DNA of 64,000 nt from positions 1-64,000 of IMG/VR virus record IMGVR_UViG_3300017763_000002; one strand, written 5' to 3'. Under the pieces are notes generated by a model. It searched no databases, was not told where the DNA came from, and saw only the letters and a program-made list of their open reading frames with translations. Below are positions 14,496 through 64,000 of this stretch, piece after piece. Source of the stretch: a virus. Within the stretch, counting starts at the first letter, position 1. Each line of letters starts with the position of its first letter. Position numbers and translations under genes: made by a program.

Positions 14496-14496
14496 A

Positions 14497-17063: not shown

Positions 17064-17070
17064 AGCTCCT

Positions 17071-17089: not shown

Positions 17090-17094
17090 AAGAC

Positions 17095-24700: not shown

Positions 24701-27700
24701 GGAAAATTATATGCTTCTGGTTTAGATAGTGGTGAGTTAGGTTTTATTGGATTAATGGATAATTCAGAATTTCAAAATACGGTGTTAGGTAATAGTACCG
24801 AAGGTTCTCAGCACAGATCGTATAATAAATTTTGGGCGCTGGAAGGAATAGGAACTGATACTGAAAATCATAGGGTAAAGATTTTTGAAAATGGTAGTGG
24901 CGGCATTAGTAGTTCAGACCAAAATGAAACCATATCTAATGATCAATCAACTTTTGTAAATTCTGAAGGAGGAAACACAGTATTTATTTGCGGAGGAAAA
25001 CTTTATGGAATGGGTCACAATCAGGGTTATTCTTTAGGGTTGTGCGCTACTTCATCAAGCACATTTGGATTAGGTAACCGATCTCAAGGCTACAGAAAAG
25101 ACGGTAATGATGATCTTGATAAACAGAGAAAGAGCGAAGCTGTGCAAGACTTTTTTGAAGCATCCTTGCATTTCGATTCAGATTATTATATTAATCTACA
25201 AGTCAATCCTGGCAGCACAATCTATAGCCTTGGAGACAGTCAGCAACAATTTAGTACAGATATGAGCACAGATCTTGTTGCGTGGAACCATTTCACTAAA
25301 AAAGGTTTTTATCAATCAATTAATGACGAATGGTCTTTAATAGGATATACTAAAAAAGATGCGAACTTCTGGGGTAGTACGTCAAATCAAATATCCCAAC
25401 TTACAAGCGATTGGTATTTTGTTGAACCTTATAATTCTAGCTCTTGGATATCTCATCCAGGATCAATGGAAGCGACAGCTTTATTTACTCCTAATTATAT
25501 GCCTTCTGATTTTTGGCAGACAGGAGGAATACACGCATACAATTTAGACCAAAAGACACCTGCAGGTAGTTGGGGCGTAATGAATCTAGCAAACCTTGAC
25601 GCTTACTTTGAGTCGAGTATTTTTGAAAGGATGGATAAGCTTATTGAAGACGAAGATTATTTTAATGCCTGGAAGAACAATATGGCTCAATATAAATATG
25701 TTGAAAATTCAAGCGTTTATCATGGAACAGTTGATACATCTTCTGGATCTCAACCTAGGCTGGGCTGGAACGGTATACTCATAAATGAAAATTCTTTAAA
25801 ACGTTTTTATGACATGGGCGACTTCGTGACTTCATCAACATGGATGAGCCAAATGAGGATCGGAAGAACAGTTGCTATTTCTGGTGAAATTGATGGATCT
25901 GATTCGGGCTTTAAGCTGGCTACGTCTCATGAAAATGGAGTTGCTAGCCTAAATCCAGTATCAAGCCCAGATTATAGTTACTATAATAATTCCCAAACTT
26001 ATGGTTATGACGGGAGCATGGGAAAATGGGCTAAGGTATTCACTCATAATAAATCACTTTATATTAACGGCAAACCCTTTTGGGATCCAGTGCTGGGAGA
26101 ATCAGAGCACATCGTGATTGATACTATAACTGGAGAATATAATGCAGGAAATTCTGGTTCCGATAACCGAGCGACTCCCCTAGGTATTTATAAATTAAAT
26201 TCTGAAAAAAATATTTCGTTCGGGAATTACCCTAGAAATACCAGGCTAGAATCAGATTTACAAATAATTATTCCAAACAATTTAGGAATTAGTAATTTAC
26301 CTGGAGGAAAAAGAAATATTGATGGTCTTGGTAACGCAAGCAAGGAAATTATTCCTGCGAGAACATATGTTCCGTACGCGACTAAATTAACGGACGAAGA
26401 TGTAACTTGGGCTGCGACAAACAAGTATTCTACATTTTACATTAACCCCCAAGGGCAAGTAAAAGCTTTAGGTTCAGTCTGCGCTTGTCCTTTTTATAAA
26501 ATACAAGGATTAAGCGTTCCGCAATCTTTTGAGTTAACTCCTGGCGGAGACTTCGGCGGTTTGATGGGCGTAGAGGGTAACTATTCGTCTCCAGCTGTAT
26601 CTATAAATTCATTTGATGCTTTTGGCTCACTTACAATTACTGCAGATGACGCAAGCCCTGTGTTTAAAAATGATAATTGGGCTTTAATTCTTTCTGCGGC
26701 GGGAACTACCTCTAGTAGTAATTTACAAACTCATGCAGCTGATGTATTTAGTGGAGATGACATTTATTTCGGATCAGATTCTAGCGAATATATATTTAGA
26801 GATCAAATATCCCAGGAAATTATTATTGAATCTCAAATTACTGCGTCTTTATATGGTCAAAATTTGCTAAAAGTTATGTATGATGATAGCAGCTATAAAG
26901 TTGCAGCCAATAGTTGGATGATAAGATTTACAGAGAAAGGGGCGGGATTAAATGGCAGTGATATAGTTTCAGACTTGAGATGGTACGCAACTAGTTACAA
27001 TCATTCTATTTTAGTTAGAGCTGTTTATTTATTAGTATTAAGGAGAGAGGCTGATTCTCTTGGACTCAGTCATTTTTCTGGACAAAACCACTATGGAGTT
27101 AATATGACTCTTTATCAGCTGATTGGAGCATTAATGTTAAGCGAAGAATTTATAAGTAATGATGCTGCTAGTTTAACTAAACGATATGTAATAGATGCTA
27201 ACCCAGAATCTCCGCAGATTTCAAACGATCCCAGGGATTGTTTTCCGGCAATGAAAAAAATGATGAAGATATGGAATCATTATGGAAATACTTCGTTTCA
27301 ATATTGGGATGGAGATTCAAACATGAGCACTTCTCACATGCTGCGGATTTCTAGTGAATACATAGGAGCTATCGTAATTAATAACTGCGAACGAGAAGAA
27401 GTCAACGGTATATATCGCCCGTCAAAAGGATGGGATGATAATGATTTTAATAGTACTGCAGATAGATCTTGGTACGAGCACGCTCATAATCAAGGAGGTA
27501 GGGATGATGATAAAGGTATATACGTAAGCGATAAAAACACTCAATACGGAAAAATCTTAATTTATTGGGATGCTAATCTTGATATTTGGAGAATGCAGTA
27601 CTCTGATTTTTGGCTGCAGGATACTACAGGAGATGGACTCAGGGCTCAAAGATTAATTGGAATGCAAAAACATTATTACAACGCCAATGGAGATTTGGTT

Positions 27701-30700
27701 AGATCCATTAAGAGTAATATCGGAACCCCGCAAGATGTTGATGAATGGTACATCGGCACAGGAGAATGGCTTACATCTACAGAGCCTGAAACTGTTGATG
27801 TATTTAGTCAACCTAATGATTTCATTGATTCAACCAGGGTAATCTATGCGCCACCAGAAAACTCATTTATTAATAATCTCCATGGGCCTACCAGAATGTC
27901 TATTGTGCCTAAGCTACTAAATAAAACTCCAGGATCTGCGGATCCAGATGCAATTTTCGACAACATGAATTACGCTCAACAATTCAATAATTTTGGATCT
28001 CAAATTCCTGATCGAAACGGCGGGCCTAGCGCTTTCGTTAACGATGATTTATACCAACTGGACCAACAGATTTATCGCTTAGTAAAAAGGTTTACTGATG
28101 ATGGCCGAGCATTTTCTCCAGTTCATTTTGCAGATAGATTTGCATCAAGGACTAGGCCTGGGGGGTTAGAAGCTCTAAGGCCTGATAATAACGAAGTTTA
28201 TCCACGCATCGGTGCGGGGCTTGATTGGAATTTGTGGCCAGAAGATGTAGATTTTGTAAACGAATTTTCTCTTAATGAACAAGCTATAGGTGATCTACTG
28301 CACTTTCAAGGCGGAGCGCTAAAAGAAACTTTAATATATACTTCTTTAGATACAAAAGCCGACGCAAATATTACTAACGATGGATTAGATCTATGGCGAT
28401 TAAATTTAACACAAAATTCCAATATAACTTTTAAATCTAAAATATTAAAAAATTCTGGAAATTTTAGTGATCCTTCAAAAGTAAAATTTGGAATGTATAT
28501 ATTTAAGGACATGGGTTATGGTTACGTTAATGTTGCTGATTTTCAGATGCAGTGGCCCAATAATGGGCTGCCTAGTGGAGGTTATGGCGAATGGGCTCCT
28601 GTGAACACATATATAACACCTGATAGGTATTCTACTTTTATTGGCGGTGGAGAAACCGCAGCGCTAGCTGACTATTCAGATTTATTTACCGATCAATACT
28701 CTCTAGTAAAAGCTTTTTTTGCAAGATATTATAGGCCTGATAATTATGTATATTCCGACGCAGATCCTAATTACAATGCAACTGGGACCAGTGGGTCACT
28801 ATGGACGATTAATGGAGATATAATAACAAATCGCGGCTTGAATTGGACTCAGATGATCGACGTCCGAACTACTCTGAGAAACGCAGATGATCATTTTTTC
28901 GATAGGGTTATGAGTAGAAGTTTTGAAAACAGACCTATATTTCCAGGAGTGTCAGCTAACAGTTTTAACATGGGAACGCAAAATCCTTCTGGTGGATCGT
29001 ACGTAAGTCTTGATGCAAATAGTTTTGTAGATAACGAGCTAGTTTTAGATGTTAGCATTAACAACGCAGCCGCTGGAGGATATTATGTTTTACTTGTAGC
29101 TGAACATGCTTTTGATGCACCTGTACAAGATTTGCAATTAATTCAATCACAATACAATATTAATACAACTGCTGTGGCTACTTCAGGAACTTCAGAGCCA
29201 ATGTTTGTTAGCGAAGCAACAACCGAACATATCAACGGACAAGATGCTGAAACTAATGAACCTATAACTAATGGAGATACCCAGGCATTCACTAAAGATC
29301 CTTTGAAATATATAGCGAGAAATTCTTGGAGTTATAACGATTATAGTGCCTTTGTTAGTATGCTGGACGTTTACGATTGGCACGCAGACTTAACAGATTG
29401 GCAGTACTATTTTGATACTCAAGAAGCAGGCCTAGAGCAAGCTTTGAGAGATCGTCCCAGCAGGTTAAATATGAACCAAGCTAATCTTGGCCTGGCGCAT
29501 TGGAATAGTACTCTTAGTCTCGAGGACCGAAAAAAAAGATCAGAGCACATAAGGGGCTTGTTTGAGAAAAGGTTTAGCGCTAAAGCTACTTACTTTAGAG
29601 GTTTTGAGTCGATGAATCATAATGCAGATTGGGTTTACGATGAAATATTTGGATGGTCTACAAAAGCAATAGGAACTCATTCTCCTGCTAATAATGGCGT
29701 TTCTAACATTTATACAAGCTCTGCTGGATATTATTTTAGTAGTAGATATAATAATTGGTTTGAATTATCTAGTGCAGATAAAACAAAAAGAGATAATGGA
29801 GAGGCATTTGCTGTTAAATTTCTTAATCATGATTTTAATTTTAATTTATTTATTGAAGGGCAATCTGAATTTAATTTAGTATGGCCAGAGTCAAATTCTG
29901 CGACCTTTACTTATTTTGGTGCAAACGGACAAATGAACACTACTACAGGATTACGAAAGCCAGTAAGTAATACATATTCTCAATTAGATCAATATTCATA
30001 CAATACAGGTGATGTTGCAAAAATTGAATTAGCAGAAGGTAATGATCTCTTTAGGACTTTATATTTTGTGTCATTAAAAGATAATAACACTTCTTCATTA
30101 GGTTTCCTGGACAGTTTAGTTCAAGACGAAATCAAGGAGATGAATATTCCCGCGAGAAAAGGATTGTGCCAGAGATATGCTGTAGAGACTCATACGCTGT
30201 CTAGCGACTCCAGCTTGTCTGGGCCAATAACTATTTACAATCCAGCAGATTACAGCAACGACAAAGCTGTAAGGGTGGATATGGGTGAGTCTCACGCAAT
30301 AATTCTCACAGAGTCAGGAAAAGCGTACGGGGTTGGAGATAATTCCCAAAAACAAATAGACAAAATTTTTGAAAGATCAGATCAATTTAGCGGCGTCAAC
30401 CAAGACTCAGCTTTTGGTCCCAGTGATTATGATAATTGCTTATATCTCGTAGCAAATAAATCTAATCCAATTAGCCCTTATTTATCAAGAAGTGATTGGG
30501 ATGCAATCGAAAAGCCTGCGTTTCCTCTGGAGCGTTGGAAATACGGTCAGTCTTATAGTAGTGGAGAGAAAGTTTTCATTAAAAACGAAACATATAGTGC
30601 TATTTCAGCAGATGATTATGAAGTTTCAGAATCAAAGAAATCAAATGTTTTATTAAATGGCTTTTCTGGGTCTCCTTATTTAATCGACCATGAAAGATTT

Positions 30701-33700
30701 TTTGATTCTGGTGAATCTAGAATAAGAAATGAAACTATCTTTGCAAATACAATAGGAGAGCTATTTAAAAGAAATTGGAAAAATGGAAGAAATGCAGTGG
30801 GCGGCGGGGGCAACAGGGTGGCGGTTTATTGCGGGAAAATTGACGGAATAACTCACGACACATCTTTAAAAAATCATTACAGAGAATCGAGGGGAGACGG
30901 TTTCTTTTTAACTCAAGACTGTTACCTAAAGCCTCATGAAATTAAAAGCTTTTTTAAACAAGGCTCTGTGGTAAATAATTTATTTATAAAAAATATTAAA
31001 TGCTCTGGATATGGTTCGTTATTCCTTGACGCCTCAAATAATATGTATGGAATTGGAAACAATGAAATATCAAAATCAAATCAATCTCAATATACTGGAG
31101 GAGAAAGTATTGGGACTGTTTTTGGTTTAAATTCAGACTTTGATTACGGCCCTGAGTTTATTAAAGAGTCAGTATCTTTTATGCATAAGGCTGGAGATTT
31201 AGTTTCGTATATTTCACATGGATATTCTTACAAAGCTGGAGGTCAAAATTTATATCCCTACTTCGAAAATTATCAAAACGCGGGAGCAGAAGCGATCATG
31301 CTAGATTCTAGTGGGAATCCTATTTCGGCAAAAATGGTTTTCCTAGAAGGCCCTAGGTTTTGGGATAATAGGGACTGGTTTTTAAAAAGAAGTTTGTCTC
31401 AAAAAATAAATAATAATTTTTATTTAAAGGATGAACACTATCGGCCCGTGGACCTAGAAAGATGCACCCCGCACACAAGAAAAGGGCAGTTTACATCTAA
31501 TGTATTTGGATTACCTGTAATTAATGATTTTATACCTGAATGGAAAGACGAAGGGCAGTACCACGAGCTTATAAAAGGGGGTCAAATTATGGGCTCAGAT
31601 AAAAATTATTTACAAAATGACCGAGAAGATGATCCAACTTGGTTTAAATCTGTAGAAACTTACGGAGCTTTGTCTAGCGCTTTTGAATCCAAGCAACCAA
31701 GCCTTGTGACTTATCAAGGCAAAATATATCAATGTATACAAAGACACGGTCACGTATTTGGAGACGAAGCAAGCGACAAAATTCCATACGATAAAAACTT
31801 AAGCAAAAAATTTACTGTTGATTCTGAAGGAGTTTATACCGCAAGAGGCAGAGTCGGGGCGGGAATAATCCCTGGAGAATCGGGATCTGAACTTTATTGG
31901 CAGGAGGTATCTGATTTATCAAATAAAAATATGATTCAATTTTTAACTCAAAGATTAAAAATATTTAACTTAAGTTCAATGATTGTTGTTTCAGAAGATA
32001 ACAGTTTATACATCAAGGGGTTTAATTTTGGTTTATCTAAAGAGGCTGACGGAACTTGTTCTGGTATAAAAGATAACTCTGAATTAATTGCTTTTGAAAG
32101 AGGCGCGGATGTAGGCTCTAATTCTCCGGAGCAAAGACTGATTATAGAAAAATATTTTAAGGATAAGTATTTATATACAGATTTAACTCCGTTCAATACG
32201 TCTATAGATACTAGGCCCACCGTGCCAAAATGGAAAAGTTTTATAAATTTGATGTCTGAAAAAATTGAAGGATGGACGCATCCGAATCCAGTAAATGAAA
32301 CAGGACAATCTACTTTGTCAGGGGGAAGATCTTTGTCCCCTTTTGACTTTTTAGGCAATAATAGAAAAAGAGGTCAGTATTTTGTGGGGATTGATCCCAG
32401 CGAATATATCGATGTAGAAAATTTATCTTTAGAATTAAATCCCACATCTCCAATGCTATCCTGGGGAGAAACAAATTCAGCGCTGAATAATTTATTGTCA
32501 AATAATGTATTCGGGTTTCTCGAAAGTTGGACAGAGATTTTTAGAGCGATGGAAGATTGGAAACAAGGCGTTTCCGCCCACTATAGACAACCAAGACCGT
32601 TTATGTTTGACGGCTCTTTCTCTGAGTGTTTGAATCTTTCCTGGACAACTGTTGACCCATTTGCAAACTCTTTATTTTTAGCATACAGAGGGGCTTATCA
32701 GCCACCTGTAGAAATATCAGGAACCGAGACTGATTGGCTTTATCATCATTCTATAGTATTACCAAGTTCAATTGATTTGTCGACCTTATCAATTAATGTT
32801 AATACCAGGAATAGTATAACAAGTTTGGAACCAAATCAAAGAAACGGCGGATCTATAATGGAAATAAACACAGATTTATCTGACGCGCGTTACAACAGTT
32901 TTTATCCAGAACTTTTAAGATCTCCAAACCCAACATTATTTAATTGGTGGGACTTAATCAGAGACGCTGGGTCAAAAATAAAATACACAGCTTCATTTAA
33001 TACGGACGAAGCAGTAGAAAATCCATCTGCAGAATTTTCATTCATGGAGTTATTTTTCTCTCAACATAGCCCTAGCTCATTTCCCGTAAGTGATTCGGCC
33101 GAATTCTCCGCAAAACCACATATATCTGAGTCGGACAACCCTTGGAACGATAGAAACTCTAGTTCGTTTTACAATCCCTGGGGAAGCTGTAATTTTGTGA
33201 ACAATATATCAAATCAAACCCAGTGGCACATACAAGACGACGCGCCTACTCTTCAATCTTTTTCTGTATGGAATGCCAGGACAAATAGCATTCATACTCC
33301 GACTCTTAGGGCAGATGCAGATTCTCTTCAGAGCATTCTTAATTACAACTACAATCAAAGTTTATACGTTGATTTCTACAGTACTTACCTTAATGCGGCA
33401 AATAATAATAGCACTGATCCTGAGCTACCTAAATTCGTAGAGCTTACCGAAGCTTTCAAGCAGTTACAGTTTTTTGATACCGCGTCGCATTACGCTTTCT
33501 TTGTTAATTCTTATTTGCTAGATCCAGCGTCTTTACCTTTTGGAGGCACAATACCTAAATTTGGATATCAGAATAACAGCGGGTCAATAACATCCGCAGC
33601 ATCGTATAATACTGGAGAAAGAGTGTTCCATAAGGGATTCGCTTTTACGTCTTTAATAGATTCAAATAACTCAACGCCATCTTTTGGTGACGTATATTGC

Positions 33701-43589: not shown

Positions 43590-44542
43590 ATTATAATAAA
43601 TGTAAAGTATGCGGAAAAGAATTCGAAAGCAAGCGGGGTTTACACTGCCACCTTAAAGAGCACGGAATTTACGTGGCGGAATATTACACGACATATTATC
43701 CAAAATTAAGCAAGCTTAATCAAACTCCAATACCTTTTAAAAAAGGAATGAATAGGGATGAATATTTTAATCAAGACTTTATAGATAAAAAGGAAATGAA
43801 CCAATGGCTCAGTCAGGGCCAAAAAGACGAGGTAAAAGAATATATTCTTAAGTCATTTAAAAAAAGAATAAAAGAAAAATCTCTCAAAGTTATGCCAAGC
43901 CATGTCGAGGGCTTAATACATAGGCTTCCATCAATAGATTACTGCATTGAACATTTTGGGTCATACTCCGCGTTAGCCGAAATCTTAAACGTTGAGCCTA
44001 TGTTTTCCAAACGATTGCCTAAAGCTTTCTGGGAAAAGGAGCCAGATATTAAAATTTTCATAGACACGAGAGAGCAACAGCCGCTATCCTTTAGTAAACA
44101 AGAAAGTATGAAGCTTGATTTTGGAGATTATACAGCCGCAGGAGAAAACTATTCTTATACTTATGTTGACAGAAAAAGCGCAAACGACTTTATCGGTACT
44201 CTAAGTTTAAAAAGTCTGGATAGATTCAAGAGAGAAATTGAAAGGGCTAGACAAGCAGACTCTTATATTTTTATTGTTATTGAGTCTGATCTAGTAGGAT
44301 TAGAGGCTTACATGCGATCTGCTAAAAGAAATAATTTTGGACCAAGTAAAACAAATCTTAATTTTATATATCACAACATGAGAGAAATATCTCATGAGTT
44401 TAGCGACGTTTGCCAGTTCGTGTTTACTGGTAGCAGGGAAAATTCAGAAAGAATAATAGAAAAAATATTGTACTTTGGCGAGTCTCTTTGGAATGTAGAT
44501 TTACAATATTACTTAGATAACTATGAGCTGGGAAAAAGGTAA
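43586..44542 (+). CDS. ERCC4-type nuclease with N-terminal C2H2 zinc finger
   Basis: 318 aa. Residues 6-26 form a C2H2 finger (CKVCGKEFESKRGLHCHLKE plus a further His). Residues about 155-300 are an ERCC4 nuclease: IFIDTREQQPLSF, KLDFGDYTAAGENY and YTYVDRKSANDFIGTLSLK, matching GD...V(D/E)RK..(S)..D. ERCC4 proteins cut branched DNA. Lying between the beta-helix gene and the terminase, it may trim branched replication intermediates before packaging, like T4 gp49 does, though of a different fold. The assignment of its role is inference. Confidence 0.85.
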   Translation: MNYNKCKVCGKEFESKRGLHCHLKEHGIYVAEYYTTYYPKLSKLNQTPIPFKKGMNRDEYFNQDFIDKKEMNQWLSQGQKDEVKEYILKSFKKRIKEKSLKVMPSHVEGLIHRLPSIDYCIEHFGSYSALAEILNVEPMFSKRLPKAFWEKEPDIKIFIDTREQQPLSFSKQESMKLDFGDYTAAGENYSYTYVDRKSANDFIGTLSLKSLDRFKREIERARQADSYIFIVIESDLVGLEAYMRSAKRNNFGPSKTNLNFIYHNMREISHEFSDVCQFVFTGSRENSERIIEKILYFGESLWNVDLQYYLDNYELGKR

Positions 44543-46391
44543 TCAAAATAATAAAAATATAGAAGATATAAATTCATATATCATGAGTTTAGAAGGTTTT
44601 GTAGACGAACGAGAATCTAAGCTTTTATTGTATAAATTTTTAAGAGAGAATCCGACTTTTACAACAGAATTAATATCAGGTATAAAGTTATTTCCATTTC
44701 AACACATGGCTATTAAGTCGATGTTTAATACAGATTACTTTATGGGGGTGTGGAGTCGGGGTATGTCAAAATCATTCACTACTGGAATTTATGCTTTCCT
44801 GGACGCTATACTTCATCAAGGTGTTGAGATAGGTATATTGTCTAAGTCTTTTCGTCAAGCAAAAATGATATTTAAAAAAATTGAAGATATTGCCGCCAAA
44901 CCAGAAGCTGCATTCTTGGCTCAATGTATAACAAAAAAATCCAAGAGCAATGATGAATGGCTGATGGAGATCGGGCAATCAAGGATTCGAGCCCTACCTC
45001 TTGGTGACGGCGAAAAGCTTCGTGGTTTCAGATTTCATAGAATTATTATCGATGAGTTTTTATTGATGCCTGAAAGAATTTATAATGAGGTTATTGTACC
45101 CTTCTTGTCTGTTGTGGAAAATCCAACCCAACGAGAAGATTTATATAATCTAGAAACTAAGTTAATTGCAGAAGGCAAAATGACAGAAGAAGAAAGATAT
45201 AAATGGCCAAATAATAAATTGATAATGCTATCTTCTGCTAGTTATAAATTCGAATATATGTATAAGCTGTATAGTCAGTTCGAAGGTTTGATCGTTAATC
45301 CAAGCGAAAAACAAGATGATGCAAACAGGGTGATCATGCAATTTAGCTACGACTGCGCTCCTAGGCAACTTTATGATCAGAATCTTATAGATCAAGCTAA
45401 AGCCACTATGAGCCAAAGCCAGTTTGAGCGAGAGTTTGGGGCAATATTTACAGATGATAGTAGTGGGTATTTTAAGACTTCCAGAATGGCAGCATGCTCA
45501 ATTCAGCCTGGAGAAGGTCAGTCTGTGGAAGTAAAAGGAGAAGTGGGAGCCAAATATATATTGGCTTTTGATCCGAGTTGGGCAGAGTCAGAAAGCTCAG
45601 ATGATTTTGCCATGTCTGTTTTTAAAATCGCAGAAAAAACTGGACAAGGGATACTAGTTCACTCTTACGCTATGTCAGGAACTAACTTAAGACATCATAT
45701 GGATTATTTTTATTATTTATTAACTAATTTTAATATTGTATCTATAGTTGGCGATTATAATGGCGGTGTTCAATTCATTAACGCTGTAAATCAAAGCGCA
45801 TTATTCAAGAAAAATAATATAAAAATAGAGACTATAACCTCAGCGTTTGATAAGCCAGAAGACTATAAAAAAGATTTACTAACAGCTAGAAGAGAGTACG
45901 ACAGGAACACTTGGAAGATATGCATACTAAGGAAGCCTACTTCTTCTTGGATTAGAATTGCAAATGAATTACTACAAGCTAATTTCGATCATAAGAGAAT
46001 TTGGTTTGCCTCTAGGGCTACGAATGATGAATATAAGGAACAGACTAAAAAGAAAATACCGATTGAAAAATTAAAATTCTTAAGGACCGTGGAATCGTAC
46101 CATAAGGAATCTAAGACAGCCAAAATGATTGACTTTGTGGAAAATCAATATGATTTAATAGAGTCAACCAAAGGTCAATGTGCTTTAATACAAATTAAAA
46201 CATCTCCTCAAGGAACTCAAACTTTTGATCTCCCGGATAATTTAAAAAGACAAACCGGCCCAGACAAAGCAAGAAAAGATAGTTATTCTGCATTAGTACT
46301 TGGTAATTGGATGATTAAGATACATAATGATATGATGAACGTTAATTTAGATAATGTACAAACCACTTTTACTCCGATGTTTATAGGATAA
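44523..46391 (+). CDS. Terminase large subunit
   Basis: 622 aa. ATPase part: adenine-binding FPFQHMAIKSMF, Walker A-like WSRGMSKSFTTG (about 78-88), and Walker B IIIDEFLLMP (about 173). Nuclease part with RNase H fold: LAFDPSWAESESS (first Asp near 349), SIVGDYNGGVQFI (about 409) and RKDSYSALVLGNWM (about 584), the three acidic clusters expected. It powers DNA packaging and cuts concatemers. Start overlaps the ERCC4 gene by 20 nt. No portal gene follows, which is unusual. Confidence 0.96.
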   Translation: MSWEKGNQNNKNIEDINSYIMSLEGFVDERESKLLLYKFLRENPTFTTELISGIKLFPFQHMAIKSMFNTDYFMGVWSRGMSKSFTTGIYAFLDAILHQGVEIGILSKSFRQAKMIFKKIEDIAAKPEAAFLAQCITKKSKSNDEWLMEIGQSRIRALPLGDGEKLRGFRFHRIIIDEFLLMPERIYNEVIVPFLSVVENPTQREDLYNLETKLIAEGKMTEEERYKWPNNKLIMLSSASYKFEYMYKLYSQFEGLIVNPSEKQDDANRVIMQFSYDCAPRQLYDQNLIDQAKATMSQSQFEREFGAIFTDDSSGYFKTSRMAACSIQPGEGQSVEVKGEVGAKYILAFDPSWAESESSDDFAMSVFKIAEKTGQGILVHSYAMSGTNLRHHMDYFYYLLTNFNIVSIVGDYNGGVQFINAVNQSALFKKNNIKIETITSAFDKPEDYKKDLLTARREYDRNTWKICILRKPTSSWIRIANELLQANFDHKRIWFASRATNDEYKEQTKKKIPIEKLKFLRTVESYHKESKTAKMIDFVENQYDLIESTKGQCALIQIKTSPQGTQTFDLPDNLKRQTGPDKARKDSYSALVLGNWMIKIHNDMMNVNLDNVQTTFTPMFIG

Positions 46392-53795: not shown

Positions 53796-53806
53796 GTAAT
53801 ATACAC
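53796..53806 (-). promoter_or_regulatory. Type II promoter for the ClpC-like gene
   Basis: Minus-strand GTGTATATTAC, 12 nt from the G to the ATG at 53794. It starts at the DnaE stop. Confidence 0.65.
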
Positions 53807-56385
53807 TACTTTAGGTCAGCGAGTTTCATATATATATTCTCCTTTAAAACATTAATGTTGTTCACAAAGAATATATCGTCAGCTTTAGACCCATAGGTCA
53901 CAATTATTGAGTTTTTTTCTGGAGCTTCATTTATATTTAAAAATTCATCAAGTTTGTTTTCTTTTGAATTATTGCAAAGCATGCAGTTTAGAGATCCAAA
54001 TTCATCTGCTATTTCTAGTTTCATGTATTTATTTCCAGATCTACTAATTCTAGTAAAGCAATCTAATACAATTCCTATCACGCTAAGGTTTGAGTTTTTT
54101 CTTTTTTCTTTATATTCTTTTAGATTTGTTAGTTTTAGCCCAGGCTTGCCAAATATATTTCTTAAGTCTTCGCTATAAGAATAGCCTAGCAGTTGATTCT
54201 CGAAGTACCAATTAGCAAAGCTGCTGGATTTGCTATTTTGCATATATATATTTTTATAAGGTTCGTATTTTTTCTTAAAGGTTTGAAATCTAGATTCCTT
54301 GAATAAAGGCCTTCCATCATCTCCCACTAAATTATTATCTCTAGCACTAACAATCGCATCTAGCAACTTGTAATTAAACTTTTCGCCCAACTGAATAAAA
54401 TTTCTTTTCTCGCGATCCGTAAGAACATTAAACACTTGAGCCTCTAGAACTAACAAGGGTCTGCTGCCTTCAAAATTAGAAAGCGCTCCTGCTTGTATTA
54501 AAGCGCACAGTGTGCCGATGTGTAATCCAGCTTGCTTGGCAGATATAAACATTTCATATTTTGTGTCTCCTGATTGAGATCTGAATTCTATTAATGATTT
54601 TAAAGCTTTTTCAGAAATACCTTTGATGGAGTTTAATCCGTACCTGATGTCGTTGCCTTCAATGGAGAAATCCATCTCTGATTTAGATAAATTGGGGGGC
54701 AAAAGTTTTATTCCGAAATAAGATAATTCTTTACTTATTTTACCCACTTCTTCTTGAGGAGAAGGTTCAAACTTTGTCATATTAAGCAAGGATAAGAAAA
54801 AATGTATTGGATACTTAAATTTTAGATAAGTTGTCCACGCGGCTAATGTAGAATACGCAATAGAATGGCTTTTATTGAAAGAGTAGTTAGCGCTATCCTC
54901 CGCCACCCTCCAAAGCACTTCTCCGGCATCCGCTCCTTCTCTGTTCAAGTCTTTGTTGGTTAGCTTGTTGTCTTCAATTTTTTGGAATATTCTCTGCTTC
55001 CATTCTGCCATTTTTTCTACTTTCTTCTTGCCAACAATTCTTCTGAGCTGTTCAGACTCATCTAAGGTGAAACCTACTTTAACGGCCATCTTCATCAGCT
55101 GTTCTTGGTACAAAGGAATACCTCCAGTATAGTCTAATATGTCATCAAAGATGGGATGAACACTCTGGAAATTTCCTGTTTCAACATAAGTCTCATAGTT
55201 AGATAAAAAATCTAAAGCTCCAGGTCTGGCGATAGCTAGCACGGCGCTTAGCTCTTCTATATTTTTAGGCTTGATTTTTCTGCATACTTTAAAATCTGTT
55301 TCCGCTTCAATTTGGAACAATCCTCTAGGACAAATAAGGTTTTGTAGGTTTGAGTATATATCACCAGAATGAACATCTATCTCTTCTAAATCAATGCCTA
55401 CTAAATTTGCGGTATTATGTAGCACGCTTAAAGTTCTTAAACCTAAAATGTCGAACTTCACCATTAGCTCCGCAACCCAATTCATATCATACCCTGTGAT
55501 TTTTTGCCCGTCTGAATTTATAGAAACAGGACAAACTTCAGATATAGGTCTATGTGAAATAGCTATACCAGAAGGATGCACACCAGTGTTTTTGTTAAGG
55601 TTTTGAATTTTTTTGGCGATTAGTACGATTTCTTCGTTATCTTTACTCCACTCTCTGAAGTCTTCGCTTTCTTCTAGAGAGACCTCTATAGACGCAACCT
55701 TTCCAAATTTCTTTGGAATCATGTCGCTAACCCTGTTTGCATCTTGCTCGCTTTGGTCTCCTACTATTTTAATGCATTCTTTTAGGCATAGCTTACTGCT
55801 TAAGGTGTTCAGTGTTAGTATTTTAGCTGTTCTTCCGGGGTGTTTTTTCTCAATATAATCTACAACTAAGTGGCGATATTCATAAGCTATATCGTTATCA
55901 ACGTCAGCAAGTAAACTTCCGTCTAGGTATGTTTCTCCTTCGCTTTCTATTTTTCTCGCTCTACTTTTAGACACAAACCTTTCAAAGAACAATTCATTTT
56001 CAATAGGGTCTATCTTAGTTACATTGATTAAGAATAAAACTAAAGAGCCTGCAGCACTGCCTCTTCCTGGCCCTGTTGGTATTCCGTTTTCATGACAGAA
56101 ATTAATAATATCCCAATTTAATAAAATATAATCTGTAAATCCTAATTCTTCTAATATGTTTAATTCATCATTTAGTCTTTTGATATATTGTTTATGATTA
56201 TCTTTTTTATTTAATTCTTTAGACAGTAAGCCTTTGTTACATATTTTAGTTAGAAATTCAAAATTAGATACATCGTTTTCTATTCCTAGCTCTCTGTAAA
56301 ATCTAGAATCTATTTTAAGCTGAGGCAGTTTTACGCCAGGCTCCATAGCTTTATTATAAGTGGAGAAAGAATCTAAAAAACTCAT
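53806..56385 (-). CDS. dnaE: DNA polymerase III alpha, polymerase core without PHP
   Basis: 859 aa, against about 1160 in bacteria, because the PHP domain is in a separate gene. Core motifs are intact: GPGRGSAAGSLVLF (about 105), FERFVSKSRARK, ADVDND (about 162; two catalytic Asp), MVKFDILGLRTL (about 311; third Asp), YQEQLMKMAVKVGFTLDESE, and NYSFNKSHSIAYSTLAAW. An OB fold is at about 770-800 (VIGIVLDCFTRISRSGNKYM). It is the phage replicative polymerase. The ATG overlaps the exonuclease stop by 4 nt. Confidence 0.95.
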   Translation of the reverse strand: MSFLDSFSTYNKAMEPGVKLPQLKIDSRFYRELGIENDVSNFEFLTKICNKGLLSKELNKKDNHKQYIKRLNDELNILEELGFTDYILLNWDIINFCHENGIPTGPGRGSAAGSLVLFLINVTKIDPIENELFFERFVSKSRARKIESEGETYLDGSLLADVDNDIAYEYRHLVVDYIEKKHPGRTAKILTLNTLSSKLCLKECIKIVGDQSEQDANRVSDMIPKKFGKVASIEVSLEESEDFREWSKDNEEIVLIAKKIQNLNKNTGVHPSGIAISHRPISEVCPVSINSDGQKITGYDMNWVAELMVKFDILGLRTLSVLHNTANLVGIDLEEIDVHSGDIYSNLQNLICPRGLFQIEAETDFKVCRKIKPKNIEELSAVLAIARPGALDFLSNYETYVETGNFQSVHPIFDDILDYTGGIPLYQEQLMKMAVKVGFTLDESEQLRRIVGKKKVEKMAEWKQRIFQKIEDNKLTNKDLNREGADAGEVLWRVAEDSANYSFNKSHSIAYSTLAAWTTYLKFKYPIHFFLSLLNMTKFEPSPQEEVGKISKELSYFGIKLLPPNLSKSEMDFSIEGNDIRYGLNSIKGISEKALKSLIEFRSQSGDTKYEMFISAKQAGLHIGTLCALIQAGALSNFEGSRPLLVLEAQVFNVLTDREKRNFIQLGEKFNYKLLDAIVSARDNNLVGDDGRPLFKESRFQTFKKKYEPYKNIYMQNSKSSSFANWYFENQLLGYSYSEDLRNIFGKPGLKLTNLKEYKEKRKNSNLSVIGIVLDCFTRISRSGNKYMKLEIADEFGSLNCMLCNNSKENKLDEFLNINEAPEKNSIIVTYGSKADDIFFVNNINVLKENIYMKLADLK

Positions 56386-57802: not shown

Positions 57803-58621
57803 TCAGTACTTTTTACTGGCTGCAGAAGGTTTTTTGTGGGTGTATCCCATTTTTTTATACTTCAAGTGATCGGAGTAAGTTTTAGCTTGGAAAGCCTTAC
57901 CCGACTTGTCGTACATAGTATGCGGTTTAAAATCTTTTTCGCCTTCTTCAGCTTTAGATTTTTTCTTTTTGTTTAAAATTGCTTTTTTGACAGCATCTGG
58001 TAATTTTTTTTGTTGATCAGTCAGCTTGGAATTATCTTCTTTCTTATCTTCTGCCTTTGATTTTTTCTTAGGCTTTTGAGCTTTTTTCCAAGATTTAGAA
58101 TCAGGTCGATCTTTATCTCCGGGTTTTGCTGGTCGGTAATTTTTACCTTCACGTTTTTTCTTGTCTCGTATGTTGTCCCAAAGTCCACGTTTGCTTTCTG
58201 AAACCTCCGACTCATCTAACATTTCAAGAATTTCCTCTTCAAAGTCAACGCTACTGGTAACTTTGCTAACTGGTTTCTTACTCCACATTTTACAAGACCA
58301 ATATTTAGCTTTGGTTTTTGGTCCTGGGCTGTCACAATTATGTCTAGCTCTAAAAGACTTTCTTCTTGAGGGGCTATCTCGTTTAATTTCCATGTTCGGG
58401 TCTCCGAAATTAACTTTAACAACGTTACCCTTTTCGTTTTTAACATAAACTGAAAACTTCTTCGGTCCCCCTGAAGTTCTAAATGGTTTATTTAACTTTT
58501 TGCCTTTATTTTTCTCCTCGGCAAAAACTTCTTCAGAAACAGCTTCCTCAAATCCCTGTTCGTCTAAGAGCGCAGCTCTAATTTCTTCTGTTAAATCAAT
58601 GTTTTTAATATATTTTTTCAT
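57803..58621 (-). CDS. Conserved phage basic protein, virion-type, 272 aa
   Basis: Residues about 55-110 contain a conserved phage motif: FSVYVKNEKGNVVKVNFGDP then MEIKRDSPSRRKSFRARHNC and a Cys-Trp SPGPKTKAKYWSCKMW, known to me from large marine phages where it lies near head genes. N-terminus is acidic-helical, the C-terminal half is a Lys-rich, low-complexity region (RPDSKSWKKAQKPKKKSKAE) ending KPSAASKKY. It could bind DNA in the virion. The ATG overlaps the DUF1501 stop by one base. Confidence 0.72.
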   Translation of the reverse strand: MKKYIKNIDLTEEIRAALLDEQGFEEAVSEEVFAEEKNKGKKLNKPFRTSGGPKKFSVYVKNEKGNVVKVNFGDPNMEIKRDSPSRRKSFRARHNCDSPGPKTKAKYWSCKMWSKKPVSKVTSSVDFEEEILEMLDESEVSESKRGLWDNIRDKKKREGKNYRPAKPGDKDRPDSKSWKKAQKPKKKSKAEDKKEDNSKLTDQQKKLPDAVKKAILNKKKKSKAEEGEKDFKPHTMYDKSGKAFQAKTYSDHLKYKKMGYTHKKPSAASKKY

Positions 58622-59889
58622 TATGATAAAAGTTCTCGTATAATTTTCCCATCGTGCGCAACCTTAAACGGTCTGCCGCTTGGAGAAAAAGTTATTTTTC
58701 TTGTGTCTAATCCCATCGCATATGCTATAGTTGCATTTAGATCTTCCATGCCAACCCCGCCTTCTTCTACGTAGTGGGCTCGTTCATCAGAGGCTCCATG
58801 TACAAACCCAGACTTAATCCCACCGCCTGCAAGTAGGGCGCTAAATGAAGAGGGGTGATGGTCTCTGCCAATTCTTCCAGGTTTTACTTCAGGAGTCCTG
58901 CCAAATTCACTTGCGACAACAACCATAGTTTCAGATAATAACCCTCTTACGTCTAGATCTTCTAGTAATGTAGAAAGCGCTTGGTCTAAAGTCGCTCCAC
59001 GAGTTTCCATAGCGCCAAAAACGTCATTATGCATATCCCAACCGCCGAGTATTACTTCAATAAATCTTACATTATTTTCAACTAATCTTCTAGCTAAAAG
59101 ACAACCCTGTCCAAAGTTGTTATCTCCATAAGATTCTCTAGTTTTTTCGTTTTCCTTTGTCAAGTCAAAAGCTTCTAAATCTTTGCTCTGCATTAACTTG
59201 ACTGCATCATCGTATAGATCTGTATAAGCTCTAACTCTTTTTTGTGGAAAGTCAGATAAAAAATCATCGTTAAATGCTTTAGCAACATCTAGTCTTTGGT
59301 TGTATAAGTTTTGATCTAAATAGTCAGATTTTTGTACATTTTGTATGCCTGCGCTAGGATTTCCTAGCGGAAGCGGCCCGTATCTTTTTTCGAAATATCC
59401 TGCGCCTAAAATATTGCTTCCACCATTAACTCTAACATTAGCTGGTAAATTGGCGTTTGCGTTCCCTCTCATTTTTGTAATCCAGCTTCCAAGAGTTGGG
59501 TGAATTATAGTTCCTCTTTTTTGGTAGCTTGTGTGAAGTAAATAATTAGCCTGTTCGTGAGCGCCCTGGTTTGTATTGAGAGATCGAAGCAAGGAAGCTC
59601 TATGCATTTGAGAAGCGGTTTTTGGCAGCCAATGCCCAAGCTGTATTCCATGAGCAGAAGAGTCGATTGCATTTGTTTCTCCCATAACATCTGAATTTTC
59701 GGGCTTAGGGTCAAAAGTGTCAATGTGCGTCATCCCTCCTCCCATATATAAGAATATTACGCTTTTCGCTTTGGGTATAACGTCAGGTGTATTTAGCGCT
59801 AATAGTTCTTTTGAGCCAATTATAGCATTAACACCTAACAAGCCTTTGGCGAGGCCAGCGACAAAACTTCTTCTACTTATATCGTTCAT
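58621..59889 (-). CDS. DUF1501 family secreted protein
   Basis: 422 aa, the usual size of DUF1501. A twin-arginine signal (SRRSFVAGLAKGLLG) is at the N-terminus. VIFLYMGGGMTHIDTFDPKP, HEQANYLLHTSY, VIVLGGWDMHNDV-like (seen as EVILGGWDMHNDVFGAMETR), VVASEFGRTPE and GRDHHPSSFSALLAGGGIKS are family motifs; the fold is alkaline-phosphatase/sulfatase-like. The family is abundant in Planctomycetota and Verrucomicrobiota, usually beside PSCyt2/PSD1. Role unknown, presumably periplasmic or surface. It has its own type II promoter at 59893-59905. Confidence 0.93.
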   Translation of the reverse strand: MNDISRRSFVAGLAKGLLGVNAIIGSKELLALNTPDVIPKAKSVIFLYMGGGMTHIDTFDPKPENSDVMGETNAIDSSAHGIQLGHWLPKTASQMHRASLLRSLNTNQGAHEQANYLLHTSYQKRGTIIHPTLGSWITKMRGNANANLPANVRVNGGSNILGAGYFEKRYGPLPLGNPSAGIQNVQKSDYLDQNLYNQRLDVAKAFNDDFLSDFPQKRVRAYTDLYDDAVKLMQSKDLEAFDLTKENEKTRESYGDNNFGQGCLLARRLVENNVRFIEVILGGWDMHNDVFGAMETRGATLDQALSTLLEDLDVRGLLSETMVVVASEFGRTPEVKPGRIGRDHHPSSFSALLAGGGIKSGFVHGASDERAHYVEEGGVGMEDLNATIAYAMGLDTRKITFSPSGRPFKVAHDGKIIRELLS

Positions 59890-59892
59890 AAC

Positions 59893-59905
59893 ATATTATA
59901 TACAC
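59893..59905 (-). promoter_or_regulatory. Type II promoter for the DUF1501 gene
   Basis: Minus-strand GTGTATATAATAT, 16 nt from the G to the ATG, starting exactly after the PSCyt2/PSD1 gene stop. Confidence 0.7.
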
Positions 59906-61948
59906 TTATTTAATAAAAATAAACTCATGAGAATTCAATAAAATCCAAGATACATGCTTGAATCCATCTGGTTTTTCAATGATATTTTTTAAAGCATTAA
60001 ATTCTCTAGTCGTTGGTTTTCTGGCTAATATCGAAAGAAAAACGCTTTCAATCTGTTTATTTTTTGATTTTTCTGATTGCATTTGCTCCATAAAATCTGC
60101 GTCTTTTTTACGTAAGATGTTTGTCTCCACGAAGCCATTCAGCAGACTTAAAACCTGCGGGGTATTTGGCTCTTTACTGCTATTATCTATCTGCTCTCTA
60201 TCTGAACCGCCAAACTGCCGTATAAGGTGCCCTCCTGGGGCTGGAGAGCTAAGGTAGCTACTTCTCACTAGCTGGCGGTCGGGGAATTTATTATTAGAAT
60301 ACTGATGTTCGTCTATTAGTTTTATAAAATTTCTTTCTCCGGGGTTTTCGTCAGCGAGTTTTTTGATATCTTGATAAATTTCTTGACCCGACATGTCTTT
60401 ATACCTATTGAATATTGGTGAATAGTCAGGTTGATTATGAAGGTAAAATCTTTTTTGACTGTCGATATCATTGTAAACTAGAGTAACTAAAGAGTCCCAT
60501 AACTGCTCTCCTGTCATGCGTCTGAGTATTGGCCCTTCAAAATTATATTCTTCTAGACTTTTGTAGTCAGCTTTTTTTGACTGTCTTTGGAAAAGTTTTG
60601 TATTAAGTAAAATTTTTTGGTATTCTCTGATGTCGTAGTTCACACTAACAAAAATGCGCTCTAAGTATTTCATGAGAGTTTCATTACTCGAAAGAGTTTT
60701 ATCTGACATTGTATCTATTGGTTCGATTAGTCCTGCGCCAAAAATTTGCTTCCATATTCTATTTGCAATCATGGTGGTGAACCTTGGGTTATCTTTGCTT
60801 GTTATCCATTCTGCTAAAATTTTTCTGCTTTTAGGGTCAGACGCTTTAGGGTCAAATATAGGTTTGGGGGTAAAAATCGCTTTAGCATAAACTGTATCAC
60901 CAGGTTTGCCATTTGATTCCGCAAAATCTCTGGGCAGTTTTATTTGGCCAGTGCCATTACTTTCTATCCCAAATATTAAAGAGTCTCTGATTTGGTTTCT
61001 CCAGTTATTGAATAAACCCGCCCTTGAATCTGCATCCTTATTGATCTCAGAACTTAACTTGCCGATTTCTCTACCAGCAGAATTAACTCTTACATTGCCA
61101 ATGCCAGAGGTGAATGCTGTCATTTCATAAAATTCTTTTTGTGTCCAGCGGTCAAAAGGATGGTCATGGCACATAGCACACTGCAGTCTTGTCCCTAAAA
61201 ATATTCTTATGGTGTGGGAAAGATTGTCGGCTTGCATGCCTCTATCTCTTAAGAAGTAACTAACTGCTGCGCTTTCTTTTGTTTCGAATATTCTACCTGT
61301 ACTTGACACTAATTCTGTAACAATTTGATCGTAGGTTTTGCCTTCTCTTAAAGATTCTCTTAACCATTTTCTATAAACCGCTCCAACGTTAATATTAGTT
61401 CCGTTTACTCTATCTTTTATCCTGAGCATGTCGCTCCACCAATTCATTTGATGGCTCACATAACCTTCAGAGTTAAGTAATTTTAAAACGAGGCTTTGTC
61501 GAGGATTAGGCGTTCTGTCGCTTTCAAATTCTTCTATCTCTTTTTGTGTGGGGATTCTACCTATTAAAGTAAGATAAGTACGTCTAATATATACCGAGTC
61601 TTCTATGTCTTTAGTTTTTTGAATTCTTTTTTCTCGTAAGTTTTGCTCGATTAAAGAGTCAATGTATGATGAATAAATTTTTAAAGTCTTATTATCTAAT
61701 GGGGTTTTAACTTGAGGTATTTGGCTGTACCTATTTTCTGAATGATAAAGCTCAATTTGTTTTTGAGTGTCTTGTGTTAACATTGACGTTTTGAATCTAA
61801 ATTGTTGAAGATCTTCAGCTCTCTGTATGATTACATGAGTTTCATTAGCTTCTAATATTTTTGCGTCAAGACTTTTGCCATTATTGAAATATAATTTATC
61901 AGCAAAACAAAAAGATGTAGATAGTAATAATAGTATTGATATTTTCAT
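59906..61948 (-). CDS. PSCyt2-PSD1 (DUF1549/DUF1553) protein
   Basis: 680 aa. A signal peptide (MKISILLLLSTSFCFA) directs export. Residues about 90-300 are DUF1549: YIRRTYLTLIGRIPTQKEIE, then WWSDMLRIKDRVNGTNINVG and GTRLQCAMCHDHPFDRWTQK with a CxxCH heme-like motif near 257. From about 370 DUF1553: RKILAEWITSKDNPRFTTMI and ANRIWKQIFGAGLIEPIDTM, later SSPAPGGHLIRQFGGSDREQ. Families found almost only in Planctomycetota, Verrucomicrobiota and relatives. The start overlaps the Nudix stop by ATGA, so the gene is embedded in the phage operon. Confidence 0.93.
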   Translation of the reverse strand: MKISILLLLSTSFCFADKLYFNNGKSLDAKILEANETHVIIQRAEDLQQFRFKTSMLTQDTQKQIELYHSENRYSQIPQVKTPLDNKTLKIYSSYIDSLIEQNLREKRIQKTKDIEDSVYIRRTYLTLIGRIPTQKEIEEFESDRTPNPRQSLVLKLLNSEGYVSHQMNWWSDMLRIKDRVNGTNINVGAVYRKWLRESLREGKTYDQIVTELVSSTGRIFETKESAAVSYFLRDRGMQADNLSHTIRIFLGTRLQCAMCHDHPFDRWTQKEFYEMTAFTSGIGNVRVNSAGREIGKLSSEINKDADSRAGLFNNWRNQIRDSLIFGIESNGTGQIKLPRDFAESNGKPGDTVYAKAIFTPKPIFDPKASDPKSRKILAEWITSKDNPRFTTMIANRIWKQIFGAGLIEPIDTMSDKTLSSNETLMKYLERIFVSVNYDIREYQKILLNTKLFQRQSKKADYKSLEEYNFEGPILRRMTGEQLWDSLVTLVYNDIDSQKRFYLHNQPDYSPIFNRYKDMSGQEIYQDIKKLADENPGERNFIKLIDEHQYSNNKFPDRQLVRSSYLSSPAPGGHLIRQFGGSDREQIDNSSKEPNTPQVLSLLNGFVETNILRKKDADFMEQMQSEKSKNKQIESVFLSILARKPTTREFNALKNIIEKPDGFKHVSWILLNSHEFIFIK

Positions 61949-62397
61949 AGTTTTTTTATAATGTTTACGATCTCTTCATCCATTGGTGTTGGTAGGGTAT
62001 CTATGTATTGGCTTTTAAAATACCCGCATTCAGTGTGCTCGTAATCTAAATTGATAGTTTCCATTCTTTCTAGTGGATATTCAAATAGCGACAAGTCTCT
62101 AATTCTTGACAAAATTTTTAATTTATTTTCATCTATAATTAAACCTGTCTCTTCTAAAACTTCCCTGCATGCCGCTTTCTCGAGAGATTCTCCAGCTTCT
62201 ACTGCTCCACAAAATGGAGACCAGTAACCTCCGAATGGAACTTTAAAATTATTATGTGGGCATACTTCAATTCTCTTAGCTAAAACCACTAACTGACCAA
62301 GCCTTAGAATAACCCCTACATTAGTTGATGATCTAAAGTTCGAAGTCGTTATGTCTGCACTGGAATGATGGGCATCCGCTATATTGTCTTTTTTCAA
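61945..62397 (-). CDS. Nudix hydrolase, 150 aa
   Basis: The Nudix box is present at about 68-92 (GX5EX7REVLEETGL, seen as GAVEAGESLEKAACREVLEE followed by TGL). It would cleave a nucleoside diphosphate linked to another moiety; the substrate cannot be predicted. The only usable start, at 62397, overlaps the nuclease gene by 65 nt. A YFKSQYIDTLPTPMDEEIVN end is typical of MutT-like enzymes. Phage Nudix proteins clear damaged nucleotides or act on NAD derivatives or RNA caps. Confidence 0.88.
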   Translation of the reverse strand: MKKDNIADAHHSSADITTSNFRSSTNVGVILRLGQLVVLAKRIEVCPHNNFKVPFGGYWSPFCGAVEAGESLEKAACREVLEETGLIIDENKLKILSRIRDLSLFEYPLERMETINLDYEHTECGYFKSQYIDTLPTPMDEEIVNIIKKL

Positions 62398-63406
62398 TTG
62401 TAAATCCTTTCTCTAATTTTTGATCTAATGAATCTTTGTCTTCTGGGTATACACTTTTTTTGATGCTTCCCTCTTCATCCAAAAGCACATAGTACTCAAA
62501 AGGTTTACGGAACTGACATATGTAGGCTTTGATTGGGCTTCCATCTTTATCTAAAACTTCCTTACCCTTAGACATCTTGTAGCCATCTTTACCGCAAGAC
62601 AAAGGCCCTCCAAATGTGCCGTCTTTAGGGTAAGACTGATCTGAAGCAAAATTGGATTTTGCATTATTTTCTGAAAAATTTTCTAAATAATTCTGTACGC
62701 CAGACAGCTCATACTCAAACCCCTCAAGAACATCATCTGATAATTCTTTCATTTTTATTACTCCTGGGCCAGATTCACCCAGCATATCTTTTTCTAGAAC
62801 AAATTTTAAAAACAAAAACTCACTAATACTTTTATACTTTGGGTATAATTTTTTAATCGCTAGACAATACATTAAGTCTTGCATGTTGTCGCTGATTTCC
62901 TTGCCTTTAAATTTTTGCTTGCTTGATTTGAAGTCTCTTATTATTGCGGATCCGTCTGCGTAAAGAAATAATTTATCGATAAACCCTCTTATGTTATATC
63001 TTTTTTCTCCTTCTTCAATCTGTAAATTAAACTCTTTTTCGGAGAAAGACTTGTCGAGTTTTCCTGGGTCTTTTCCGAAAAAATCGTAGTTTAAACCGTT
63101 GACTACCATTTTGTTTATGTCATCTAGGCTTTCTTGGTTAAAAACGCTTAAGCGCTTTGCATGTTTGTGTACCATTTTTTCGATAGAAGGAACGCACCAA
63201 ATAGTTTGCTCTTTGATTATTAAATCAAAATATTTTTTCCTTCTTACGTTTCCAAGCACTTCAAAAATAAGGTGACATATCCATCCTTTTGATGCGCCAT
63301 CATTGCTTTTGTCTGGAAGTTTTAATACGTACTTGGCCCAATATAACCAAGAACATTGTTGCGCAGTTTTAATTCTGCTGGCGGATAGGAAAATGGGTTT
63401 TTTCAT
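62333..63406 (-). CDS. PD-(D/E)XK nuclease, Cas4/RecB-like
   Basis: 357 aa. LSASRIKTAQQCSWLYWAKY at the N-terminus, then GWICHLIFEVLGN, FIDKLFLYADGSAIIRDFKS (catalytic D and DxK) and DNMQDLMYCLAIKKLYP (QxxxY) match the PDDEXK_1/RecB-Cas4 nucleases. Cysteines near the N-terminus (C18) and late (LSCGKDG, YICQF, GCPSFQCR) suggest an iron-sulfur cluster as in Cas4/AddB, though the spacing is not textbook. It lies in the replication operon between primase and Nudix genes with short overlaps, so it likely processes phage DNA ends. Confidence 0.85.
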   Translation of the reverse strand: MKKPIFLSASRIKTAQQCSWLYWAKYVLKLPDKSNDGASKGWICHLIFEVLGNVRRKKYFDLIIKEQTIWCVPSIEKMVHKHAKRLSVFNQESLDDINKMVVNGLNYDFFGKDPGKLDKSFSEKEFNLQIEEGEKRYNIRGFIDKLFLYADGSAIIRDFKSSKQKFKGKEISDNMQDLMYCLAIKKLYPKYKSISEFLFLKFVLEKDMLGESGPGVIKMKELSDDVLEGFEYELSGVQNYLENFSENNAKSNFASDQSYPKDGTFGGPLSCGKDGYKMSKGKEVLDKDGSPIKAYICQFRKPFEYYVLLDEEGSIKKSVYPEDKDSLDQKLEKGFTIEKRQYSGCPSFQCRHNDFEL

Positions 63407-64000
63407 AAAATTGATTTAATGTTTTTTGATAGATTAGCGCTAAGCTTTCCGCTTCGCGACATTTGTTTACAAGCAGATTTTATTTCAGACAAAGAATCGT
63501 ATTGAATACAAGATTGCAAGTTGTCTTTCCAGCTGATAAATTCATTAGAATTCATATCTCCAAAATCATTTTGTAATGGTTGGTGAATTTTAATTTTACT
63601 TGGCATAAATAAATGAGATATCATTTTTAAAAAATTCTTATAGGAGGCTTCTAGGCCTCGATTATCTTTAGATAAAGCGTCATTATTAAGCGATAATACT
63701 ATGTGGCTAGGGTTAATAAATGTTAGATAATTTAATAGTTTCTTAGAAAGATCTAGCCCGAAAGAAACTAAAACGTTATGTATTCCGTGCGTTTTTAAAT
63801 TTAATAAATCCCCAATACTTTCTACGATAATTACATGCCCGCAATCGCTGATTGATTGTTCTGTTAAAGGGTCTGCGAAAGCAGGATAAACCCAATTGCT
63901 TTTTCTACCTATGTGCTTCCATTTGGGTCTGCTGTCATTGTTATAAATATCTCTGCCAGAAAAACCATGTATTTGTTTATTTTCATTAAAAATTGGAAAC
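63403..64000 (-). CDS. DnaG-type DNA primase, partial at the right edge
   Basis: The frame is open to base 64000, so the N-terminus is missing; 198 codons are seen. FPIFNENKQIHGFSGRDIYN then PKWKHIGRKSNWVYP is the primase core. The toprim part reads VIIVESIGDLLNLKTHGIHN (catalytic Glu) and IVLSLNNDALSKDNRGLEAS (NND for the usual DxD). The end is helical. It makes RNA primers for the phage fork. A 4-nt overlap joins it to the nuclease gene. No helicase part is in the window. Confidence 0.93.
   Translation of the reverse strand, partial: FPIFNENKQIHGFSGRDIYNNDSRPKWKHIGRKSNWVYPAFADPLTEQSISDCGHVIIVESIGDLLNLKTHGIHNVLVSFGLDLSKKLLNYLTFINPSHIVLSLNNDALSKDNRGLEASYKNFLKMISHLFMPSKIKIHQPLQNDFGDMNSNEFISWKDNLQSCIQYDSLSEIKSACKQMSRSGKLSANLSKNIKSIL

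Follow-up and report, generated by a model that had tools for sequence, protein, structure and literature searches.

Genes for DUF1501 and PSCyt proteins are a signature of Planctomycetes and Verrucomicrobia, where they occur in dozens of copies. Why, then, does a large marine phage keep one such pair among its replication genes, and what might the pair do there? We analysed it within a window, meaning the whole stretch of DNA studied here, which covers bases 1-64000 of a 204,906-base IMG/VR virus record (about 205 kb; record G000). The whole record encodes one DUF1501 and one PSCyt2. The relevant features of the window are:

44523..46391, + strand: terminase large subunit (TerL), a phage hallmark (phrog_2, E 3.6e-26)
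53806..56385, - strand: PolC-type DNA polymerase, the lineage marker used for the tree (PF07733, phrog_405)
57803..58621, - strand: g57803, a phage gene (phrog_7595) found beside or near DUF1501 in many relatives
58621..59889, - strand: DUF1501, 422 aa (PF07394, 371 bits against a cut-off of 27)
59892..59902, - strand: TATATAATATG, core of the promoter-like motif GTGTATATAATATG, just upstream of DUF1501
59906..61948, - strand: SHD1-PSCyt2-PSD1 protein, 680 aa (PF07583, 147.6 bits; PF07587, 118.9 bits)
61945..62397, - strand: Nudix hydrolase, the upstream phage flank, with a 4-base overlap with PSCyt2 (PF00293)
62333..63406, - strand: PD-(D/E)XK exonuclease, phage flank (PF12705, phrog_1218)
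63403..63999, - strand: primase, phage flank, cut by the window end (phrog_47)

The pair is real. Both open reading frames are intact, full length and far above the Pfam curated cut-offs, with PF07583 and PF07587 both above the gathering score within one protein and DUF1501 covering positions 1-390 of the 390 in its profile. The two genes are adjacent on one strand with PSCyt2 first, which is the PSCyt2-DUF1501 arrangement of the PVC group. The preliminary description had placed them inside the phage operon and pointed to overlapping codons, which can be read directly from the sequence: PSCyt2 begins with the ATG at 61948, which shares bases with the Nudix stop codon (ATGA, 61945-61948), and the DUF1501 stop overlaps the ATG of the next gene at 58621 (TAATG). 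Phage genes lie on both sides (primase, nuclease and Nudix on one, exonuclease, polymerase and Clp on the other), and TerL is in the window, 13 kb from the pair. That this is no assembly artefact, as had also been claimed, is borne out by an independent contig (L059) that repeats the gene order: Nudix, PSCyt2, DUF1501, g57803, then g57027, exonuclease, PolC and Clp. More widely, g57803 lies within 10 kb of DUF1501 at 42 of 81 DUF1501 loci, at a median distance of 965 bp.

Taken together, the terminase, primase, PolC-type polymerase, exonuclease and Clp ATPase (the last four assigned by Pfam and PHROG) indicate that the window comes from a large tailed-phage genome or most of one. Compared with the polymerases of GenBank phages, its PolC reaches an identity of only 25-35%, and the lineage is uncultured. 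The window also contains a 5895-aa ORF (18704-36391, + strand) with weak matches to a CBM5/12 carbohydrate-binding module and to RCC1 repeats, likely a giant surface or tail protein. TnpB/Cas12f1-like proteins (PF07282) are encoded at 180430-181809 of the record (L033:16430-17809) and at L053:749-2200.

DUF1501 had been credited with its own phage-style promoter, and this holds in the form of a motif, GTGTA[AT]1-4AT, which is enriched upstream of genes. It occurs in the 50 nt before 10 of 162 genes (0.68 expected), an enrichment of about 15-fold in record G000 that makes it a candidate phage promoter, and it also precedes DUF1501 in many relatives; a generic sigma-70 scan found nothing above chance. 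Exact matches to TATATAATATG lie at 18167, 37324 and 59892. Besides DUF1501, the motif-bearing genes include the glycosyltransferases at 13440 and 16245, the DUF2827 gene at 17095, the genes at 18190 (just before the giant ORF) and 37376, and the subtilase gene at 38107. Three genes of the glycosyltransferase region are:

13440-14495, strand not given: GT2 glycosyltransferase, with the same upstream promoter-like motif as DUF1501
14497-15309, strand not given: sulfotransferase, following the GT2 gene
16245-17063, strand not given: DXD glycosyltransferase, with the same upstream promoter-like motif as DUF1501

Glycosyltransferase, sulfotransferase and DUF2827 genes occupy 13440-18150, three of them with this motif. 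In relatives, the neighbours of the pair include genes for GDP-mannose dehydratase, sulfotransferase, Gcw_chp outer-membrane protein and ribonucleotide reductase. In 23 cases NrdB is no more than 3 kb away from DUF1501. Genes for Gcw_chp proteins (signal-peptide-bearing and of outer-membrane type) were seen at L061:3215-3865 and at 18 loci like it, frequently at most 3 kb from DUF1501.

What kind of proteins does the pair encode? DUF1501 begins with MNDISRRSF, which places an RRxF twin-arginine-type motif at residues 6-9, and has the conserved motifs DTFDPK (57), GWDMH (283), SEFGR (327) and GRDHH (341). An RRx[FLIMV] N-terminus is present in 122 of 128 viral DUF1501 proteins versus 22 of 1419 other phage ORFs, and GRDH in all 128. 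The twin-arginine motif suggests that DUF1501 is exported by a Tat-type route. Its partner has a hydrophobic, signal-like N-terminus followed by an SHD1-like small barrel, and carries a CxxCH haem motif (CAMCH, residues 257-261) that is kept in 33/33 viral PSCyt2 and 21/21 cellular sequences; it may be a Sec-type exported mono-haem protein. The haem motif and export-type N-termini reported in the preliminary description are thus present in the respective proteins and conserved across the viral copies.

The AlphaFold2 model of DUF1501 (pLDDT 87.3, pTM 0.86) matched sulfamidase, sulfatases, LtaS and alkaline phosphatase in Foldseek (E from 7e-8), with TM-scores of only 0.34-0.44 over a partial alignment at about 12% identity, and a profile search of PDB sequences pointed weakly in the same direction. 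The predicted fold is that of the alkaline-phosphatase/sulfatase superfamily; DUF1501 also has several conserved D/H motifs in common with type I sulfatases, LtaS and alkaline phosphatase. However, DUF1501 is not itself a type I sulfatase, because the fGly motif (C/S-x-P-x-R) is missing from the window protein (CxPxR occurs in 3 of the 128 viral copies), and Pfam found no PF00884 match in it. For the PSCyt2-PSD1 protein (AlphaFold2 pLDDT 79.6, pTM 0.83), no solved structure was matched by sequence, and by fold the N-terminal barrel alone found a counterpart, Sla1 SHD1 (2hbp).

Neither tblastn against 50,697 GenBank phages nor PHROGs gave a match for DUF1501 or PSCyt2. In IMG/VR, at least 40 contigs carry close relatives (49-76% identical). 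The DUF1501 protein has 14 loci there at 67-76% identity (clade 1) and PSCyt2 has 11, nearly all on the same contigs, with the two genes adjacent or nearly so. A profile scan of viral contigs raised the number of DUF1501 relatives to about 340. These are the window's own clade, about 26 members of a second clade at 49-53% identity, and many more distant proteins at 34-40%. The 28 virus records examined hold between one and four DUF1501 copies each; a terminase profile matched in 20 of these (some weakly), and PSCyt2 exceeded its Pfam cut-off in 12. Among 23 long contigs selected solely for a related PolC, 12 carry DUF1501 and six carry PSD1, the latter never without DUF1501; since contigs are fragments, all these counts are lower bounds. 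Three phages (L077, L082 and L087; records G012, G014 and G016) each have four diverged DUF1501 genes in an array and no PSCyt2 match. We also noted a protein cluster (c28) of about 600 aa with a membrane anchor, a Gly-rich stretch, a VWA/MIDAS-like VDGSGS motif and no Pfam match. Its gene comes just before PSCyt2 in several phages of clade 1 (L036:5458-7359, L039, L040, L042, L048 and others), lies elsewhere near the pair in other phages, and is absent from record G000. An origin of c28 in host operons was rejected, as the host loci contained no match.

Full-text searches of open-licence papers found none on DUF1501 or PSCyt2 families in phages, and BFVD, a viral structure library, holds a single entry, 'DUF1501 domain-containing protein [uncultured Caudovirales phage]'. 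The claim that their presence in phages is uncharacterised thus stands for the papers searched, but one viral DUF1501 had already been named, if not studied.

Where did the pair come from? A scan of genome contigs found one Lentisphaerales MAG (L035), whose phylum we take to be Verrucomicrobiota in GTDB's sense. Within 388 genomes of that phylum, the best DUF1501 matches form a subfamily of 430-470 residues that is 45-50% identical to the phage protein and is preceded by a PSCyt2 gene, the same order as in the phage (aligned PSCyt2 pieces are 30-46% identical). At several host loci the pair is followed by a PSCyt1-type c-cytochrome with leucine-rich repeats. In the DUF1501 tree, phage clades 1 and 2 group together (100/98), nested in this Verrucomicrobiota-type subfamily (100/100), and a third viral lineage (L076, L093, L102) falls inside the same subfamily; one and two acquisitions within it are indistinguishable (AU p 0.135). 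A single acquisition of all viral copies is unsupported, as the wider tree forces at least three virus/cell label changes. The PSCyt2 tree agrees, with 30 phage sequences together (97) and the third lineage beside cellular ones, and has several long branches. The phylogenetic check proposed for the pair places DUF1501 among PVC sequences. Our best reading of these sequences is that the pair is an old phage-adapted module, probably of PVC (Verrucomicrobiota-type) origin, with the donor phylum tentative, given that Planctomycetota were sampled by one plasmid.

The pair has also been maintained and moved within phages. DUF1501 and PSCyt2 are under strong purifying selection in phages: where synonymous change (dS) is unsaturated, dN/dS among their copies is 0.014-0.08, a range like that of the polymerase. 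In clade-1 relatives the pair is 67-76% identical to that of the window, versus about 59-63% for PolC. L059 is the closest phage to the window by polymerase (PolC 88%, exonuclease 86%, Clp 81%), yet its DUF1501 and PSCyt2 fall in the other clade, at only 53% and 45% identity to those of the window. Conversely, L053 and L056 share 82% identity in PolC and 71% in Clp, yet 99.5% in DUF1501 and 98.8% in PSCyt2, and their pair lies in a segment whose DNA identity is mostly 94-100% before it breaks off sharply; by gene order, this segment also includes ribonucleotide reductase genes. The allele label changes four times on the PolC tree, all forced by well-supported branches, and once on the DUF1501 tree. 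These contrasts and label counts indicate that the pair moves between phages as a unit. A host-type pair in a phage operon, as first described, is thus correct in that the genes are phage-encoded, but they are not a recent single insert; phages have long had their own family of these genes, with separate clades, paralogues and exchange of the pair between phages. The pair was also said to indicate the host group strongly. The PVC affinity is upheld by phylogeny, but long circulation of the genes among phages makes them a poorer guide to the host, and we found no host link. No close PolC was present in the 388 genomes of L035's phylum (a search run without a positive control), and a DNA search with 20 kb of the window returned no spacer-like match; what it did hit can be put down to conservation of coding sequence, chiefly in the Clp gene.

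Phage auxiliary metabolic genes and serotype-converting enzymes are host-derived, intact, selected, near core genes and exchanged between phages. The pair resembles them in each of these respects, and like an auxiliary metabolic gene it persists intact in a record that also encodes phage hallmarks. Unlike those examples, its family has no known function even in the host. We know of no activity of DUF1501 or PSCyt2 in any organism, and the substrate is therefore a guess. That many viruses keep, duplicate and swap the pair suggests a role in altering the outside of the host cell. We tentatively favour, at a little under an even chance, an exported two-protein module of PVC origin that alters the envelope of the infected cell. 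The phage would make both proteins during infection. DUF1501 would be a Tat-exported enzyme of the alkaline-phosphatase/sulfatase superfamily and PSCyt2-PSD1 its exported mono-haem partner, with both at work in the periplasm or envelope of the host. Their likeliest task would be to cleave or transfer phosphate, sulfate or similar groups of glycans in concert with the phage glycosyl- and sulfotransferases, and the altered envelope may work against competing phages or ease release. Export, haem binding, substrate, purpose and host are all features that we infer for this module. The glycan link is consistent with the promoter motif that DUF1501 shares with the glycosyltransferases, which have a sulfotransferase beside them. 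It also draws on the GDP-mannose dehydratase, sulfotransferase and outer-membrane-protein neighbours in relatives, and on cellular neighbours, namely chitin synthase for DUF1501 in proteobacteria and sulfatases for PSCyt genes in Verrucomicrobia. However, the pair is in the replication cluster, apart from those genes, and in the phage lineage of the window about half of the DUF1501-bearing contigs lack PSCyt2. A narrower version, possible but rather doubtful, is that in large marine phages a haem-dependent periplasmic module, built of DUF1501 with or without PSCyt2, is exchanged between genomes, has expanded into paralogues and edits the envelope glycans of the infected cell, as a host-interaction cassette of a previously undescribed kind.

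The pair may instead work as it does in the host, sustaining the use of (sulfated) glycans or a linked periplasmic electron flow and thereby securing the energy supply of the infected cell, with its envelope unaltered. This would fit the orthologous cellular pair with the same order and its PSCyt1-type neighbour, the retained catalytic and haem motifs and the strong purifying selection, as well as the association of PSCyt genes with sulfatases and carbohydrate use in Verrucomicrobia (PMC5615132). We consider it unlikely: hosts already have dozens of copies (44 DUF1501 matches in G001), which makes one more an odd bottleneck to relieve, and tandem arrays of up to four diverged copies and allele swapping look more like host interaction. 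The predicted fold of DUF1501 would also suit a periplasmic phosphatase, nucleotidase or phosphodiesterase freeing phosphate or nucleosides for phage DNA synthesis, and the position beside PolC, primase and Nudix, with NrdB close by in relatives and one recombined block that appears to hold reductase genes plus the pair, points the same way. Such scavenging is improbable, as it leaves the haem partner and the paralogue arrays unexplained, and the promoter-like motif is common to glycosyltransferase genes, not replication genes. The subtilase gene and the gene just ahead of the giant ORF also have the motif upstream, which may thus act as a late promoter; the pair could then be made late and packaged, or degrade the unusual PVC envelope for release. 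The motif's late status is unproven, and with the replication-cluster location, the export signals and the lack of a virion gene beside the pair, we regard this as very improbable. Chance cargo, neutral or decaying, or assembly contamination would account for the close cellular homologues, but it is almost certainly wrong considering the dN/dS values, the monophyletic phage clades, the phage promoter-like motif and the same locus in independent contigs, so that selection and synteny both speak against it. A role in defence was dropped, as no PADLOC model of anti-phage defence matched.

Comparison with known systems places the favoured envelope-altering module in context. The PVC pair has the same domains, gene order, and RR and CxxCH motifs, but the phage pair has its own clades, a phage promoter-like motif and phage-to-phage swapping, and the PSCyt1-LRR neighbour of some host pairs was not seen at the phage loci examined. 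In proteobacteria, a DUF1501 with a Tat motif adjoins chitin synthase and sugar epimerase genes (PMC5122149). These DUF1501-DUF1800 operons likewise combine a twin-arginine DUF1501 with a mobile glycan-related cluster, although their partners are DUF1800 and chitin synthase and they lie on proteobacterial chromosomes rather than in phages. Elsewhere PSCyt genes adjoin sulfatases with function unknown (PMC5615132; PMC2754498), and nothing is known of what the DUF1501/PSCyt families do (PMC5615132).

Phages that keep, multiply and exchange just one such pair under strong selection reduce this puzzle to a minimal two-protein unit amenable to expression and assay, and the pair marks a large uncultured marine phage lineage as probable predators of PVC-type bacteria. 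If the editing of envelope glycans is indeed its role, it would offer a first way into the function of a family of which PVC genomes have dozens of copies.
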